From: an uncultured Flavobacteriales bacterium
GTDB taxonomy: Bacteria; Bacteroidota; Bacteroidia; Flavobacteriales_D; Parvicellaceae
Reading direction: 5' to 3'
NCBI GenBank assembly: GCA_943788755.1
Contig: CALSRM010000001.1
Coordinates: forward strand, 372,001-436,000
Length of the DNA stretch: 64,000 nt
The first letter of the stretch is position 1, and the number at the start of each line of letters is the position of its first letter. Below the pieces are notes generated by a model that worked only from the letters and a program-made list of their open reading frames with translations, had not been told where the DNA came from and did not search any database. Made by a program: the position numbers and the translations under genes. Positions 1,610 to 49,626 of the stretch are shown piece by piece.

Positions 1610-1620
1610 AGGAGTTAATT

Positions 1621-2796
1621 TTGCTTGTTATGAAAAATATTGTAATAATATTATTATTTGTGTTTATTAGTCAGCCAATGTTTGCTGATAAGGAAATAAT
1701 GGATATTGGTGTTTTTAGAAATGTAAAAACATCACATATATTGTTTAACTATTTGGATGATAGTTATTCCTTTCATTCAGAATCAGGCACATTCTTTACT
1801 TTAAATAAAGGAGAATCCGTAAGGATACAGAACAAAAATGGTGAAATTCGAATTAAACAGGGCGACGTTGAAATTGGTACTTACAAGGAAGTATACATTA
1901 AAAGAAGTCATGAAGGTGGAGCTTTTAAAATTAAATGCCTGAGTCCTTCATCTAGAGAAAGAAAATATCAAGGAAATTTAAAAATATTAGCGGAAGGCAA
2001 GTACTTAAAAATTATTAATCAAGTTCCGCTAGATGAATACCTAGTAGGTGTTATAGAGTCTGAATCTGGGAACAATGAATCTAAAGAATATTACAAAGTC
2101 CAGGCTGTAATTAGCAGAACCTACGCTTTGAAGCATAAAAGTAAGTTTATGGATGAGGGTTTTATGCTAACAGATTTAACAAATTGTCAGGTCTATAAAG
2201 GGAAAATGTATAAAAATCAAAAAATAATTGATGCCGTCAAAGAGACAGAAAACTTCGTATTGGTTGATAGTGATATGAATTATATTACTGCTTCATATTA
2301 TTCAAATAGTGGTGGTCAAACTGTAAACAGTGAAGATGTGTGGACTAAGCCTCTTTCTTATTTAAGAAGTGTTAAAGATCCTTATTCATACGGTAAATCC
2401 AATTCTAATTGGACAAAAGTAATTAGTAAGGCTAAATGGATTTCTTATTTGGATAAGCAGCATAATTATCCAATTGAAAATAAAGAGGATATTGAGAAAG
2501 CGTTATCTTTTAAGCAAGACTCAAGAAGGAAATACTTTGTCGATTGGAAATATCATATACTGCTTACAGATATACGAAAAGATTGGAAATTAAAAAGCAC
2601 CTATTTTGATGTGAAAGTGAAAGGGGATGAGGTTTACTTGTCTGGAAAGGGATTTGGACATGGTGTTGGATTGTCTCAAGAAGGTGCAATGAACATGTGC
2701 GATTTAGGATATGGTTTTTTAGACGTTCTTTTGTTTTATTATACGCAAGCACATCTTATCGATCTAGAATTGATGGACTTCTATTTATCTTATTAA
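1621..2796 (+). CDS. SpoIID/LytB-domain cell wall protein
   Basis: About 391 residues with an N-terminal signal peptide (residues 1-22, ending near FA) and a SpoIID/LytB domain over roughly residues 140-375. Visible signatures are VPLDEYLVGVIESE, YYKVQAVISRTYA, YYSNSGGQT and GKGFGHGVGLSQEGA, all typical of SpoIID-type amidase enhancers or glycan-acting enzymes. The product should work in the periplasm on peptidoglycan. GGAG at 1611-1614 sits 6 nt before TTG 1621, one of the few good Shine-Dalgarno sites here; ATG 1630 is the alternative start. Last gene of the lpxB transcript, followed by a terminator. Confidence 0.85.
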   Translation: MLVMKNIVIILLFVFISQPMFADKEIMDIGVFRNVKTSHILFNYLDDSYSFHSESGTFFTLNKGESVRIQNKNGEIRIKQGDVEIGTYKEVYIKRSHEGGAFKIKCLSPSSRERKYQGNLKILAEGKYLKIINQVPLDEYLVGVIESESGNNESKEYYKVQAVISRTYALKHKSKFMDEGFMLTDLTNCQVYKGKMYKNQKIIDAVKETENFVLVDSDMNYITASYYSNSGGQTVNSEDVWTKPLSYLRSVKDPYSYGKSNSNWTKVISKAKWISYLDKQHNYPIENKEDIEKALSFKQDSRRKYFVDWKYHILLTDIRKDWKLKSTYFDVKVKGDEVYLSGKGFGHGVGLSQEGAMNMCDLGYGFLDVLLFYYTQAHLIDLELMDFYLSY

Positions 2797-4092: not shown

Positions 4093-4797
4093 TTATTTGG
4101 GTTTTTGCCAATTAAAGTTTTTAAATAGTTTGTCCCAGTCCGCAGGGAAACTACTTTTTAATACTAGTTGTTCTCCGCTATTCGGTTGTTTAATAGTTAG
4201 TTCACTCGCATGTAAAAACATGTTGTTCCAATTGAATTCATGTTGAAACATTCGATTATGAAATCGATCTCCATACTGATAATCCCCCACAATAGGGTGG
4301 CTTATTTTGTTTGCATGAATCCGAAGTTGGTGCATTCTACCAGTTTTTGGTGTAAATTTCACCAAGCTGTACCTCGACTTCTCGTAAGGATTCACAGGGA
4401 TGTCTAATTCTATTATTTCTAGTGTTTGGTATTCAGTCAGCGCCTCTTTGTACATTCCTGTTTCAGCATTTTTTGTAGGAGTATCAATAACTCCGCTTGG
4501 AGGACAATGACCTCGGACGACAGCGTAATAGTGTTTCTGAACCTTGTTGTTTTCAAATTGTTGCTGATAGTCTTTAACGAATTCTTTTTCCTTAGCTAAA
4601 AGTAAAATTCCAGATGTCTTTCTGTCTAGTCTATGGATTGGGTATAGGTCAAGTTCCGTTTGCTCCTTTAGCAAAGTAACTAAATCATCGTCAGTGATAT
4701 TTCGAGCAAAATAAGATGCGTAAACCAGAATGTTATTTGGTTTGTTTACTGCAATAATTGAATCGTTTTCGAATAGTATTTCTATGTCAATTTGCAC
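4093..4797 (-). CDS. truC: tRNA pseudouridine(65) synthase, TruC-like
   Basis: 234 residues, RluA-type pseudouridine synthase without an S4 domain. The catalytic motif HRLDRKTSG is present (D is the nucleophile), followed by TPKTGRMHQLRIH and LHASEL. The overall pattern ILFENDSIIAVNKP ... HPIVGDYQYGD follows TruC, which modifies U65 in tRNA, more closely than RluD or RluC; this assignment is by recall, not alignment. The start is GTG at 4797, the only start compatible with the conserved N-terminus. A perfect TAnnTTTG box ends 5 nt upstream, so the mRNA is likely leaderless. Confidence 0.78.
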   Translation of the reverse strand: MQIDIEILFENDSIIAVNKPNNILVYASYFARNITDDDLVTLLKEQTELDLYPIHRLDRKTSGILLLAKEKEFVKDYQQQFENNKVQKHYYAVVRGHCPPSGVIDTPTKNAETGMYKEALTEYQTLEIIELDIPVNPYEKSRYSLVKFTPKTGRMHQLRIHANKISHPIVGDYQYGDRFHNRMFQHEFNWNNMFLHASELTIKQPNSGEQLVLKSSFPADWDKLFKNFNWQKPK

Positions 4798-4802
4798 AAT
4801 GG

Positions 4803-4810
4803 CAAATCTA
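4803..4810 (-). promoter_or_regulatory. TAnnTTTG -7 box of truC, 5 nt before GTG
   Basis: Reading leftward the sequence is TAGATTTG, an exact match to the Bacteroidota sigma-A -7 consensus. Five bases separate it from the GTG start. No clear TTG -33 element is seen at 17-23 nt upstream. Confidence 0.5.
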
Positions 4811-28525: not shown

Positions 28526-28533
28526 TATATTTG
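28526..28533 (+). promoter_or_regulatory. TAnnTTTG -7 box of the GNAT gene, 5 nt before ATG
   Basis: TATATTTG, exact consensus, ends 5 nt before ATG 28539, so transcription should begin at or beside the start codon. Confidence 0.5.
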
Positions 28534-28538
28534 TTTCT

Positions 28539-28997
28539 ATGATATTTTATCTAAACAATAACGACGTTCCTGTCGCGGAAAAATTATTTTCAATTTGGCA
28601 GGAATCATATATTATCGAAGCGAAGCTTCTTAAGGTAAATGGTTTTCCCCCGTTAAATAGAACAATGCAAGATTTTTTAAATTCTTCTACCCATTTTTAT
28701 GGTTTTTTAAAAAACGATGTCTATAATGCTGTAATTGAAATAAGAGATAATAATGGTACCTTACATATTCAAAGTTTGGTAGTACAGCCAAGTCAATTTA
28801 GAAAAGGCTTAGCCAGTAAAATGATTGCTTTTGTATTGAGTGAGAATATGGAGTGCAACTTTACTGTAGAAACCGGTTGTGATAATTTACCAGCGATAAA
28901 CTTATATTTGAAGTTTGGATTTGTTGAAGCGGAACAGTACGAAACAGATCATGGCGTTCGTAAAACTTGTCTTTTATTAAAAAGAACAGGGAATTAA
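28539..28997 (+). CDS. GNAT-family N-acetyltransferase
   Basis: 152 residues. The acetyl-CoA binding core is visible as [22 protein letters not shown] (motif A, with RKGLAS standing for Q/R-x-x-G-x-G/A) and [21 protein letters not shown] (motif B). The substrate is unknown; such enzymes acetylate small molecules, antibiotics or protein N-termini in the cytosol. Start ATG 28539 directly follows a consensus promoter box. The stop codons of this gene and the opposing SUI1 gene overlap in the palindrome TTAA at 28994-28997. Confidence 0.85.
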
Positions 28998-42658: not shown

Positions 42659-42666
42659 TACCTTTG
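42659..42666 (+). promoter_or_regulatory. TAnnTTTG -7 box of menG, 5 nt before ATG
   Basis: TACCTTTG, exact consensus, ends 5 nt before ATG 42672. A TTTTTG lies about 25 nt upstream, slightly far for a -33 element. Implies a leaderless or nearly leaderless menG-porT transcript. Confidence 0.5.
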
Positions 42667-42671
42667 TACAC

Positions 42672-43406
42672 ATGTCAAAAAATAAAATAGTTACTCCCTT
42701 TAAGGATTCAGATAGCTCCAAAAAAGAACAAGTTGCTGAAATGTTTGATAATATTTCGCATAGGTATGATTTTTTGAATCATTTTTTATCTTTTGGTATT
42801 GATAAAATATGGAGAAAGAAGGCAATTAAAATAATTGGAAGATACAATCCTAAATTAATTTTGGATATAGCCACTGGTACAGGGGATTTTGCAATAGAAG
42901 CCTTGAGGTTAAATCCTGAAAAAGTTATTGGAGTTGATATATCTAATGGGATGCTCGACAAAGGCAGAGAGAAAATGATAAAAAAGGGTTTCGAAGATAA
43001 AATAACACTTCGAAATGGAGATTCAGAAAATCTCCCCTTCGATGATAACTCTTTTGACGCCATTACCGTTGGGTTCGGAGTTAGAAACTTTGAGAATCTA
43101 GAAAAAGGACTTGCAGAAATGTATAGAGTTTTAAATGTTGGAGGAGTTTCCGCTGTTCTAGAGTTTTCAAAGCCGAAAAATTTTCCGATAAAACAATCTT
43201 ACATGATATATTCAAAGTACATTATGCCTAAGGTGGGAAAAACTATTTCTAAAGATGCTTCGGCCTATGCCTATCTTCCTGAATCTATTGATGCTTTTCC
43301 TGAGGGTAAAGAGTTTTTAAGTATCTATGAGTCTGTTGGATTTACAAATGTTTCTAAGGTAAAAGTTTCGGGAGGAATAGCTACAATCTATATCGGTGAA
43401 AAATAA
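42672..43406 (+). CDS. menG: Demethylmenaquinone methyltransferase MenG/UbiE
   Basis: 244 residues, normal length. SAM-dependent C-methyltransferase that makes menaquinone from demethylmenaquinone. [24 protein letters not shown] is the UbiE N-terminal signature; [16 protein letters not shown] is SAM motif [25 protein letters not shown] is the classic UbiE block (quoted in two parts: [24 protein letters not shown]). Bacteroidota use menaquinone, so menG is the better symbol than ubiE. First gene of the menG-porT-oxidoreductase string. Confidence 0.95.
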
Positions 43407-43454: not shown

Positions 43455-44168
43455 ATGCAAAAGCTAATTGTCATATGTTTATTATTTGTAATAGTTGGAA
43501 AAAGCTATGCGCAACAAATGGAAAACTTGTATGATTTTGACGAAAACAGAATGCATTTTGGTTTTGTGCTCGGTTATAATAAGGCGGATTTCTATTTGGA
43601 TAAAAATACAGCATATGGTACTTCGATAGATACTTTAATGGTACTGGAGGTAGAACCAAAGCCCGGTTTTAATCTTGGTATTGTTTCTTCCTTGAACCTT
43701 ACTCCTAATTTAAAGATACGACTTGTACCTTCTTTGTCATTTCAAGAAAGAGTTATAGAATATACTTATTTCAAACAACCAGATTCTTCGGAGTTTTGGA
43801 AAAAGGAAGTTCAGCCAGTTTTTTTAGATTTTCCTCTATTGCTTAAGTTTAGAACAAACAGAATCAATAATTTTGCTGCATATATAATTGGTGGTGGAAG
43901 ATTGGGTTTTGATATGTCTAGCAGTGAAGGTGTTAAGAATTCTTCGGCCTCGTTAGAGGACCAAATAGTAAAGACATCTAGAGCGGATTATGGATTGGAA
44001 ATAGGTGGGGGTATTGACCTTTTTCTGGAGTATTTTAAATTTGGAGTTGAGTTAAAATTAGGAATGGGATTAAAGAATATGCTCATTCAGGAAAATTTAA
44101 AATTTTCAAGTCCTATTGAGAGCTTGCGCTCAAAAGTTTGGACTTTGTCATTTACCTTTGAAGGATAA
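43455..44168 (+). CDS. porT: Type IX secretion protein PorT/SprT
   Basis: 237 residues with signal peptide (ending SYAQ) and an eight-strand-like outer-membrane barrel: FGFVLGYNKADF, LNLTPNLKIRLVPSLSFQER, VFLDFPLLLKFRTNRINNF, GGGIDLFLEYFKFGVELKLG, and a terminal VWTLSFTFEG. PorT is required for T9SS protein export and gliding. The identification rests on barrel pattern plus position directly after menG, the arrangement found in Flavobacterium and Porphyromonas relatives. Its stop overlaps the next start by one base (TAATG at 44166-44170). Confidence 0.85.
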   Translation: MQKLIVICLLFVIVGKSYAQQMENLYDFDENRMHFGFVLGYNKADFYLDKNTAYGTSIDTLMVLEVEPKPGFNLGIVSSLNLTPNLKIRLVPSLSFQERVIEYTYFKQPDSSEFWKKEVQPVFLDFPLLLKFRTNRINNFAAYIIGGGRLGFDMSSSEGVKNSSASLEDQIVKTSRADYGLEIGGGIDLFLEYFKFGVELKLGMGLKNMLIQENLKFSSPIESLRSKVWTLSFTFEG

Positions 44169-47025: not shown

Positions 47026-47055
47026 CTAATTTCTATTTTTGTGCAAATTAGTAAA

Positions 47056-47083
47056 TTGCATTTAAATCCGTAACATATATTTG
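47056..47083 (+). promoter_or_regulatory. Full promoter of tamL, -7 box 5 nt before TTG start
   Basis: TTG at 47056-47058 and TATATTTG at 47076-47083 with a 17-nt spacer: both elements present at consensus spacing. Only 5 nt separate the -7 box from the TTG start at 47089, so the transcript should be leaderless. Confidence 0.6.
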
Positions 47084-47088
47084 CATTC

Positions 47089-49626
47089 TTGAAAAGCTTT
47101 TCTACTAAATATTTCATTTTATCAATTGTTCTTTTGGATGTATTCTCTTGCAGCCCGACAAAATATGTTCTTGAAGATGAATATTTATTGGATAGCAACA
47201 AGATTTTATTTGAAGAAGACTCTATAGGAGGTAAGAATCATGGTCGACAAATTTCAGTTGATGAATTATATCCGATTTTAAAGCAAAAACCAAACAGAAA
47301 AATAGGGTTTGGATTGGCAAGACTTCATTTGAGGATTTATAGCCTATCGAATGAAGAGAGAATTCAAAAAAGGAAACTGGTAAATAAAAACAAGGCGGAT
47401 GCAAAGAATTTAAAAATTGACCAAAAGAATATAAAAAGACGCGCAAAAGATAAACTTCCTAAACAGTACAAGGTTGTTAAAACAACTTTTGGGGAAGGGC
47501 TTAGGAATTCTGGAGAAGCACCTGTTATACTCGACTCGTTAAAGATACACAAATCAATAAAACAACTTAATAATCAATTAATTAATGAAGGTTATTTCAA
47601 TAGTGAAATTGATTACATGGTGTCATTTGGGAAACATCAAAAAGCTGAGGTAGTCTATATTGTTTCAGAAGGAAAACCTTATACGATTAAGGAAATTAAA
47701 AATCAAATTAATGATTCGGTACTGTTAAGCTACATAAATCGTATCTCTCAGGATTCATATTTGAAAGTTGGAGAGAATTTCAATACGGATAAGATGGATC
47801 ATGAACGAACGCGTTTAACAAAATATTTACTAGATAATGGATATCATTTCTTCAATAAGGAGTTTATTTATTTTAGAATAGATAGTACTCTTGGTTCAAG
47901 ACAGGTAAATGTTGTTTTAGGCATTCAGAATTATAAAATAAAGGATATAATGACTGATTCTATTGTTGAGGTAAAACATAAGCAATATGAAATCAAGGAA
48001 GTTATTGTGGTGGTTGATTATGATTCTAAAGATGCCATTGGTTCTGTTTTACAAAGTTATCAAAAAGAGACTTTTGAAGAGATTGATTTTTACCACAAGA
48101 AAAAATTAAGGTACCATTTAAAAATGCTTCATGATGGTGTATTAATAAAAGAAGGGGAGCTTTATAATAAAACGACTATAGAAGCTACCTATAGAAAATT
48201 TTCGGGATTGGGAATTTTTAAATCTGTTTCCATTCAGTTTGACACATTAAATGATGGACTTCAGGCTAGAATTGTTTTGGAGCCTATAAAAGCGCAGACG
48301 TTTAACGTTTCCTCAGATGGGCTTCATAATAACGGATTGTATGGTATTGAAGGGAGTATGACGTATGCGCATAAGAACGTCTTCGGTGGTGCAGAAAGAT
48401 TACAAATAAGCTTTTCTGGAGGTTTAGAAGCACAAAAGTTGTTAATCGATGATGAATCGGATGATAATTTATTATCTAATGCAAATTTTAATACCATTGA
48501 GTTTGGACCCCGGATATCACTTGTTTTTCCTCGTTTTTTATTTCTAAATAAATACTTCACAAATAAAGCAAATGCTAAAACGGAGTTAACGACTTCCTAT
48601 AATTATCAGAAGAGGCCTGATTTTACCCGAGGGGTTCAAGACATTTCCATGACATGGGTGTGGCATGAGAAAGCTCCTATTACATATAAGTTTACGCCTA
48701 TTTCTTTGAGTGCTATAAGTATTACTAAGGAGCAGGCTTTTCAAGATAAAATCGATGCCATTAATGATGGGTTTCTTGCTGCTAGTTATGATAATCACAT
48801 AATTGCTGGAGGAAGATTGTCGTTTGAATACAATGGGCAGCAATTAAAAAAGAGGAGAAATGTATTTTATACAAGCACTACTATTGAAGGAGCAGGCAAT
48901 GTTTTAAGAGGTGTTTATAAATATTCCAACCAGGTAATTGATACAACAACAAATAGCTATAGTTTATTTGGAATAAGATTTGCTCAATTTGTCAAAATTA
49001 ACTTAGATACCCGTTATTACAGGCTTTTATCTAAAAAAACAAAAGTAGTTTATCGAGTAGCTGCTGGAATAGGATTGCCTTTGAGTAATCTTTCGGAGGC
49101 ATTGCCTTTTCAAAAAAGTTTCTTCTCCGGTGGGGCAAATGGCATGAGAGCTTGGAAAGCTCGAACCCTAGGTCCGGGTGCCTTTTATGATTCTACTGGA
49201 AGTTTCGATAAAATTGGTGATATTCAGTTAGAAAGTAATATTGAGTTCCGGTTTCCTTTAATTAGTTGGGTTGAAGGTGCTTTATTTGTTGATGCAGGTA
49301 ATATTTGGCTGATTAATAGAGACTCTCTGCGAACAGATGCTCACTTTGAAGCTGATAGGTTTATTAGTGAAATTGCAATTGGAACGGGTATTGGTTTAAG
49401 AATGGATCTTGATTTTTTTGTGATTCGATTTGATCTTTCAATGCCTTTTAGAAATCCATCTTTACCTGCCTCTCAAAGATGGTTATTTCAGGGAGGGTTG
49501 AAAGAAGGGAGCAGTTATTTCGAATCTGTTTACGATACAGAGATCGAGCAGTATGTTGATGTGGAGATTGATAGGGGGCAGTTTTTTAAATTACAATTTA
49601 ACTTGGGAATAGGTTATCCTTTCTAA
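47089..49626 (+). CDS. TamL: BamA/TamA-type outer-membrane assembly lipoprotein
   Basis: 845 residues. Starts with a lipoprotein signal (lipobox VFSC), which is the mark of TamL, the Bacteroidota lipidated TamA homologue. POTRA-like segments cover about 130-430 (KSIKQLNNQLINEGYFNSEI, RYHLKMLHDGVLIKEGELYN, TIEATYRKFSGLGIFKSVSI). The C-terminal half is an Omp85 barrel with SFFSGGANGMRAWKARTLGPG (the L6 RGF-like loop, here R-A-W) and ends RGQFFKLQFNLGIGYPF with the terminal Phe. It inserts proteins into the outer membrane. The TTG start is required for the signal peptide. The tamB gene does not follow. Confidence 0.88.
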   Translation: MKSFSTKYFILSIVLLDVFSCSPTKYVLEDEYLLDSNKILFEEDSIGGKNHGRQISVDELYPILKQKPNRKIGFGLARLHLRIYSLSNEERIQKRKLVNKNKADAKNLKIDQKNIKRRAKDKLPKQYKVVKTTFGEGLRNSGEAPVILDSLKIHKSIKQLNNQLINEGYFNSEIDYMVSFGKHQKAEVVYIVSEGKPYTIKEIKNQINDSVLLSYINRISQDSYLKVGENFNTDKMDHERTRLTKYLLDNGYHFFNKEFIYFRIDSTLGSRQVNVVLGIQNYKIKDIMTDSIVEVKHKQYEIKEVIVVVDYDSKDAIGSVLQSYQKETFEEIDFYHKKKLRYHLKMLHDGVLIKEGELYNKTTIEATYRKFSGLGIFKSVSIQFDTLNDGLQARIVLEPIKAQTFNVSSDGLHNNGLYGIEGSMTYAHKNVFGGAERLQISFSGGLEAQKLLIDDESDDNLLSNANFNTIEFGPRISLVFPRFLFLNKYFTNKANAKTELTTSYNYQKRPDFTRGVQDISMTWVWHEKAPITYKFTPISLSAISITKEQAFQDKIDAINDGFLAASYDNHIIAGGRLSFEYNGQQLKKRRNVFYTSTTIEGAGNVLRGVYKYSNQVIDTTTNSYSLFGIRFAQFVKINLDTRYYRLLSKKTKVVYRVAAGIGLPLSNLSEALPFQKSFFSGGANGMRAWKARTLGPGAFYDSTGSFDKIGDIQLESNIEFRFPLISWVEGALFVDAGNIWLINRDSLRTDAHFEADRFISEIAIGTGIGLRMDLDFFVIRFDLSMPFRNPSLPASQRWLFQGGLKEGSSYFESVYDTEIEQYVDVEIDRGQFFKLQFNLGIGYPF

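Follow-up and report, generated by a model that had tools for sequence, protein, structure and literature searches.

Leaderless mRNAs are described in several Bacteroidota. In the extracts of the published studies drawn on here, they account for 5.5% of the mRNAs of 890 coding sequences in F. psychrophilum (PMC9723704), 5′ untranslated regions shorter than 10 nt amount to ~3.7% in B. thetaiotaomicron (PMC7366714), and leaders exceed 10 nt in 87% of those F. johnsoniae transcripts for which there is a probable promoter (PMC6847099), so that ~13% of the leaders in this species are 10 nt or shorter. The same portion of the F. johnsoniae study gives 4 or 5 nt from the −7 box to the transcription start at probable promoters, a box consensus of TAHHTTTG with G virtually absent from the third position, and a −33 motif that is much less evident (PMC6847099). 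Bacteroidia ribosomes, according to the available part of another report, hide the 3′ tail of the 16S rRNA, and Shine–Dalgarno sequences are not recognised (PMC9976891). For mycobacteria, the accessible passages state that ATG as well as GTG can be used at the 5′ end, and that in M. smegmatis TTG did not work as a leaderless start (PMC4633059).

We analyzed 64,000 nt of the genome of an uncultured Flavobacteriales bacterium (the window; G000:C1:372001–436000 of a 3.17-Mb genome in five contigs), in which the original prediction had singled out four genes with a consensus −7 box exactly 5 nt before the start codon. Box, 5-nt spacer and start codon are present at all four. The menG gene (demethylmenaquinone methyltransferase; 42672..43406, plus strand) starts with ATG at 42672, preceded by the spacer TACAC and the box TACCTTTG (42659..42666), the sole exact box within 350 nt upstream. 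A GNAT-family acetyltransferase gene (28539..28997, plus strand) has its ATG at 28539 behind the spacer TTTCT and the box TATATTTG (28526..28533), with a further exact box 178 nt upstream. The gene of a TruC-like pseudouridine synthase (4093..4797, minus strand) starts with GTG at 4797, following the box TAGATTTG (4803..4810), the sole exact box within 350 nt, and the spacer CCATT. Finally, the lipoprotein gene tamL (47089..49626, plus strand) starts with TTG at 47089, preceded by a proximal box TATATTTG (47076..47083) with the spacer CATTC and by a distal box TATTTTTG (47034..47041) 47 nt before the start. A TTG at 47056..47058, 17 nt before the proximal box, is a possible −33 element, as had been noticed; by eye, tamL is the only one of the four genes with a TTG at this spacing. 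All four boxes match TAnnTTTG, but the term "consensus" calls for a qualification: the truC box has G at its third position and falls outside TAHHTTTG, the consensus in the F. johnsoniae extracts (PMC6847099), which the other three match.

In family profile searches, the products of menG (MenG/UbiE, TIGR01934) and tamL (NF052279) matched above cut-off. The best NCBIfam match of truC was TruC, under the cut-off (214.1 versus 328 bits), and the GNAT gene was assigned via Acetyltransf_1, both being family-level assignments. Among the best 80 of 516 matches to the menG protein, the nearest named record is a Flavobacteriales MAG with 93% identity. The starts had been described as fixed by protein signatures. 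The GTG of truC is the sole candidate from the preceding in-frame stop to about residue 22; in tamL, translation from the next in-frame start, residue 16, would put 5 residues ahead of the lipobox cysteine (residue 21, by eye). Two more boxes lie close to an ATG on the plus strand of the window: TAATTTTG (1616..1623), a near-leaderless candidate 6 nt before ATG 1630, and TACCTTTG inside the end of porT (44153..44160), 7 nt before ATG 44168, which is possibly a coding coincidence. The porT/sprT gene of the type IX secretion system (NF052311; window 43455–44168) follows menG, and the menG proximal promoter may head a menG–porT transcript.

With good confidence, we take the four genes to be leaderless or near-leaderless through a promoter close to the start, an arrangement that appears real and mostly ordinary. 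The −7 box of the housekeeping sigma factor (σABfr type) would be close enough to the start codon for transcription to begin at the codon or one or two bases from it, and we infer that the ribosome would take up the 5′-terminal start codon directly, without Shine–Dalgarno pairing. The four genes would thereby belong to a general minority class with the box 4–7 nt (mode 4) before the start. The box, the spacing peak described below and the conservation of menG and mtaB are observed here; the transcription start is placed by analogy with the 4–5 nt from box to start in the available F. johnsoniae account, by which the transcript would begin at the A of ATG after a 4-nt spacer, and at this A or one base before it after a 5-nt spacer (PMC6847099). 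The range of 4–11 nt from box to transcription start assumed originally is wider than this account gives (PMC6847099).

As a bare string, the arrangement is not rare. TANNTTTG followed by five nucleotides and DTG occurs 7 times in the window, compared with 4.82 ± 2.21 in shuffles, and 23 of 100 shuffles reach 7; four of the seven matches are the four gene starts. With a 4-nt spacer there are 5 matches versus 4.7 expected, none of them at the four genes. Another in-frame match with a 5-nt spacer lies inside a lipoprotein-like gene (19627–19620, ATG 19614, minus strand) and is taken to be an internal coincidence. As the window count is at chance level, pattern frequency alone was dropped as evidence; the informative test is where the box lies relative to gene starts. 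Across the genome, TANNTTTG-N5-ATG occurs 110 times versus 69 for the reversed pattern. Eight of the N5-ATG places shown belong to one tandem repeat outside the window, on the minus strand of G000:C3:528585-530259, where identical matches lie exactly 237 bp apart and every unit has a box-like sequence.

We counted exact boxes by distance from starts called with a simple hexamer scheme, which ignores upstream sequence in choosing a start; the finder missed the starts of GNAT and tamL, two of the four window genes, so that the counts are approximate. In the sample of the own genome (the window and 40 further stretches of 20 kb each, 864 kb in all with 654 called starts), a box lies 0–3 nt before the start in one gene and 4, 5, 6 and 7 nt before it in 11, 7, 4 and 3 genes, respectively; 11 genes in all have it at 8–12 nt, and 86 fall into a broad peak at 13–35 nt. 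Given a background of 1.08 per distance per 654 starts, the 25 boxes at 4–7 nt compare with 4.3 expected (P 8e-12), or about 3 per 100 called genes for exact boxes in this sample. Without the window, 21 remain versus 4.2 expected at 603 starts (P 4e-9). Four further samples of ~400 kb each, from the genomes G028 and G021, Taishania pollutisoli and a Roseivirga, together have 32 such boxes versus 5.4 expected at 1224 starts (14, 6, 8 and 4 versus 1.4, 1.8, 1.5 and 0.7, respectively), and each is significant alone (P 2e-10, 0.011, 2e-4 and 0.006). Leaderless boxes make up 15–27% of the box excess in the five samples. With the mode at 4 nt and a spread over 4–7 nt, "exactly 5 nt" was abandoned as a special value, and the four genes first noticed are a draw from the 4–7 nt class.

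The reading frame gives a second view of this class. Start codons 4–7 nt behind a box are in frame with the gene in 37 cases and out of frame in 4 in the own genome, versus 17 and 21 at flanking spacings (0–2 and 9–12 nt). A null of 1:2 was dropped for the higher in-frame share at flanking spacings; these are the proper comparison, since the neighborhood of a gene start is rich in in-frame codons in any case. Pooled over five genomes, in-frame and out-of-frame counts at 4–5 nt versus flanks are 43/2 versus 21/13 for ATG (Fisher 2.5e-4), 10/1 versus 8/7 for GTG (Fisher p 0.08) and 5/3 versus 8/27 for TTG (p 0.04; 4/3 and p 0.18 without the window). The frame test supports a leaderless class and does not tell GTG and TTG apart.

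Counts blind to gene calls but matched for codon phase rise modestly. In the five samples, N4-ATG is 1.59 times its expectation (47 versus 29.6, p 0.0018), with 1.9 times in the own genome and 1.36 times in the other four (p 0.09); N4-GTG reaches 1.42 times (p 0.09), N4-TTG 0.71 times and N5-ATG 1.23 times (p 0.1). An even draw of 120 genomes of the order from a larger group contains TAHHTTTG-N4-ATG 9298 times versus 3242 reversed controls, and the pattern exceeds the control in 118, the reversed pattern being a rough null only and lenient for ATG (23 versus 29.6 by matched spacing in the five samples). By the same control, N4-GTG stands at 2457 versus 2266 (p 0.018) and N4-TTG at 4122 versus 4519. 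The N4-ATG excess per genome is 24 in the family of the window (16 genomes) versus 54–71 in families f8, f9 and f10. Together with the 15–27% share in the five samples, this gives no support to a particular wealth of leaderless genes in the family of the window. Within f9, G103 has 61 matches and no controls and G125 has 50 and 1.

The layout of menG recurs in much of the family, and we regard this gene as very probably leaderless or near-leaderless. Among 30 family loci, one truncated (L174) and three without a hit (L178–L180) were left out, and 26 remain, the own locus included; two weak matches with internal stops, L175 (box at 3 nt) and L176 (no box), were kept. In 19 of the 26 (18 ATG, one GTG), an exact box precedes the start by 3–6 nt, and this layout spans seven genera (g1, g2, g3, g4, g6, g7 and g8); the other seven (three in g9, two in g6 and one each in g5 and g7) lack an exact box within 80 nt. 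A wider scan covered the best 80 of 516 matches, of which 79 were usable (L096 is truncated) and 76 were compared after setting apart L071, L144 and L146, which share their upstream sequence with, or are nearly identical to, the family loci L153, L166 and L164. These 76 were not recognized as family members. One (L117) has a box 6 nt before ATG, 13 have one 13–22 nt before a start, and in 62 an exact box is absent within 40 nt; L116 has a TTG upstream of its likely ATG, and the box 5 nt ahead of that TTG was not counted.

Two variations of the menG layout stood out. In genus g6 (L168, L170, L171, L172, L175 and L177), only 3 nt separate the box from ATG, which is closer than the 4–5 nt given in the F. 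johnsoniae extracts would allow for an intact ATG (PMC6847099). In relatives from Belliella, Aquiflexum and Roseivirga (L089, L091, L100, L112, L121, L125 and similar loci), a conserved TAATATTGCA or TATTATTGCA stands before menG in place of the expected TAnnTTTG and may be a variant box, TAnnATTG.

Orthologs of the other genes were fewer. The GNAT gene has the 5-nt spacing also in L212, the one full-length relative found, and its leaderless or near-leaderless state is likely. For truC, where matches below 38% identity were left out, the GTG of the same-genus genomes G002 and G003 has its box at 22 and 33 nt, and G031 of another genus has N5-ATG; here we lean only slightly toward a leaderless or near-leaderless start. 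By these comparisons, the layout is kept within the genus in GNAT and tamL and not in truC. We also followed mtaB, which lies outside the window and was picked from the spacing list (29 loci, L356 giving no hit). Four loci of the window's genus have N4-GTG and G027 has N5-GTG; an exact box lies 4–8 nt before ATG in 9 of 29 and at 15–24 nt in 6, a variant TAnnTTCG box occurs in 6 (two at 7–8 nt, four at 25–39 nt), and 3 have none. The orthologs in a sister genus have ATG with the box 20–22 nt upstream, and judged by box position, leader and no leader interchange among orthologs. The leaderless list of the own sample contains several genes for tRNA modification, folate, molybdopterin and menaquinone (MnmE, MtaB, FolP, MoaA and MenD; L043, L044, L035, L068 and L067), which may point to a functional enrichment for tRNA modification and menaquinone, and MenD has N4-ATG also in Taishania (L287). 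The names MnmE, MtaB, MoaA, FolP, MenD and TrmD in this list were given by eye from the protein sequence and are presumptive.

The most serious alternative concerns tamL, for which a working proximal promoter is an even call. Just short of that, we would credit the distal box as the working promoter, with a leader of ~43 nt (taking 4 nt from box to start) and a TTG that cannot serve at the 5′ end, as in the M. smegmatis result in the available text (PMC4633059). The distal box recurs in the three genus loci, and five tamL loci of other genera have a TTG candidate with a box 20–29 nt upstream. The proximal arrangement is kept as well: TTG with the 5-nt spacing is found in all three same-genus loci (own included), TATATTTGCATTCTTGAAAAG is identical in the three, and the possible −33 TTG has the same spacing in them by eye. 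Moreover, in g6, five of six loci with a visible start have N4-GTG, and the box of the sixth is 11 nt from an ATG; one g2 locus has N7 before ATG, and elsewhere boxes are 19–29 nt off or absent. The in-frame excess of pooled TTG at 4–5 nt also speaks against the distal box, at the significance given above with and without the window.

For the set as a whole, the four arrangements could be chance in AT-rich DNA, the genes being read from other promoters or as leadered members of operons. The chance-level count in the window, the lack of significance for N5 in gene-blind counts, the internal in-frame match and the unconserved truC layout fit this view, as does the selection of the arrangement from the window after the fact. 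We consider it improbable in light of the menG conservation, the persistence of the spacing peak outside the window and the expectation of ~0.08 at one spacing among 51 called window genes versus 4 seen, two of the 4 being at starts that the gene finder did not choose. The leaderless reading originally proposed is partly supported: the aggregate peak and the menG conservation favor it, and it is weakened for truC, where the layout is not kept in the genus, and for tamL by its second box. That the proximal boxes are used but translation begins at a later in-frame codon behind a short leader is very unlikely: of the five g6 tamL loci with box-N4-GTG, three do have an ATG 12 nt after the GTG, and some predicted starts have alternatives, but truC and tamL leave little room for a later start, and mtaB starts align near the first residue across the family.

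We compared start codons between near-box and leadered starts, a comparison made after the data were seen. Pooled predicted starts comprise 36 ATG, 6 GTG and no TTG with the box at 4–5 nt (n=42), and 182 ATG, 5 GTG and 14 TTG with it at 13–31 nt (n=201). The GTG share differs (6/42 versus 5/201; Fisher p 0.0045, or 0.015 without the window), as it does in the own genome alone (p 0.010; 0.038 without the window), but in the four other genomes alone it is 2/24 versus 3/121 (p 0.19); for TTG, 0/42 versus 14/201 gives p 0.14. GTG may thus be favored at near-box starts. A tentative extension, which we hold to be doubtful, is an RTG rule in Shine–Dalgarno-blind bacteria, with GTG favored and TTG avoided at leaderless starts and with menG and mtaB keeping or regaining the layout family-wide; one base would then be both the initiating purine of RNA polymerase and the first base of the start codon. 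This reading is weakened because the flanking-spacing control fails to separate GTG from TTG. The GTG and TTG starts had been called striking; the GTG of truC is not odd, because GTG works at the 5′ end in mycobacteria in the passages available (PMC4633059), and for TTG the counts are too few for a verdict.

Leaderless genes of Bacteroidia show what initiation needs without pairing or a leader, and mtaB, with a predicted leaderless GTG start in the window's genus versus ATG and leadered orthologs in a sister genus, offers a natural test pair. For annotators, they are a warning that promoter position can fix a start. A search of open-licence full-text literature found no Bacteroidota leaderless starts split by codon, and in the portions of those texts that were available, neither family-wide conservation of the layout nor a possible RTG tendency was met.

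TA-led leaderless genes were reportedly described by Zheng et al. in 2011. In the available part of the study of such genes (PMC3160421), a −10-type box lies ~12 nt before the start codon, and the leaderless state is likewise deduced from box position, with the E. coli Pribnow box as the reference; Bacteroidetes are among the clades with many "atypical" genes there, so the group is not resolved. The mycobacterial RTG initiation described in the accessible text of PMC4633059 resembles the present case in having ATG and GTG at the 5′ end, but belongs to another phylum and promoter and was tested by reporters and ribosome profiling. Closest are the leaderless mRNAs of F. psychrophilum, F. johnsoniae and B. 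thetaiotaomicron, which, as far as the extracts of those studies go, share the same −7 box and the same minority class; their starts were mapped or predicted from RNA-seq, whereas here box position, frame and conservation are used. Leaderless Bacteroidota mRNAs with this box are already published, at 3.7–13% depending on definition in the excerpted sources, and the four genes are new members.
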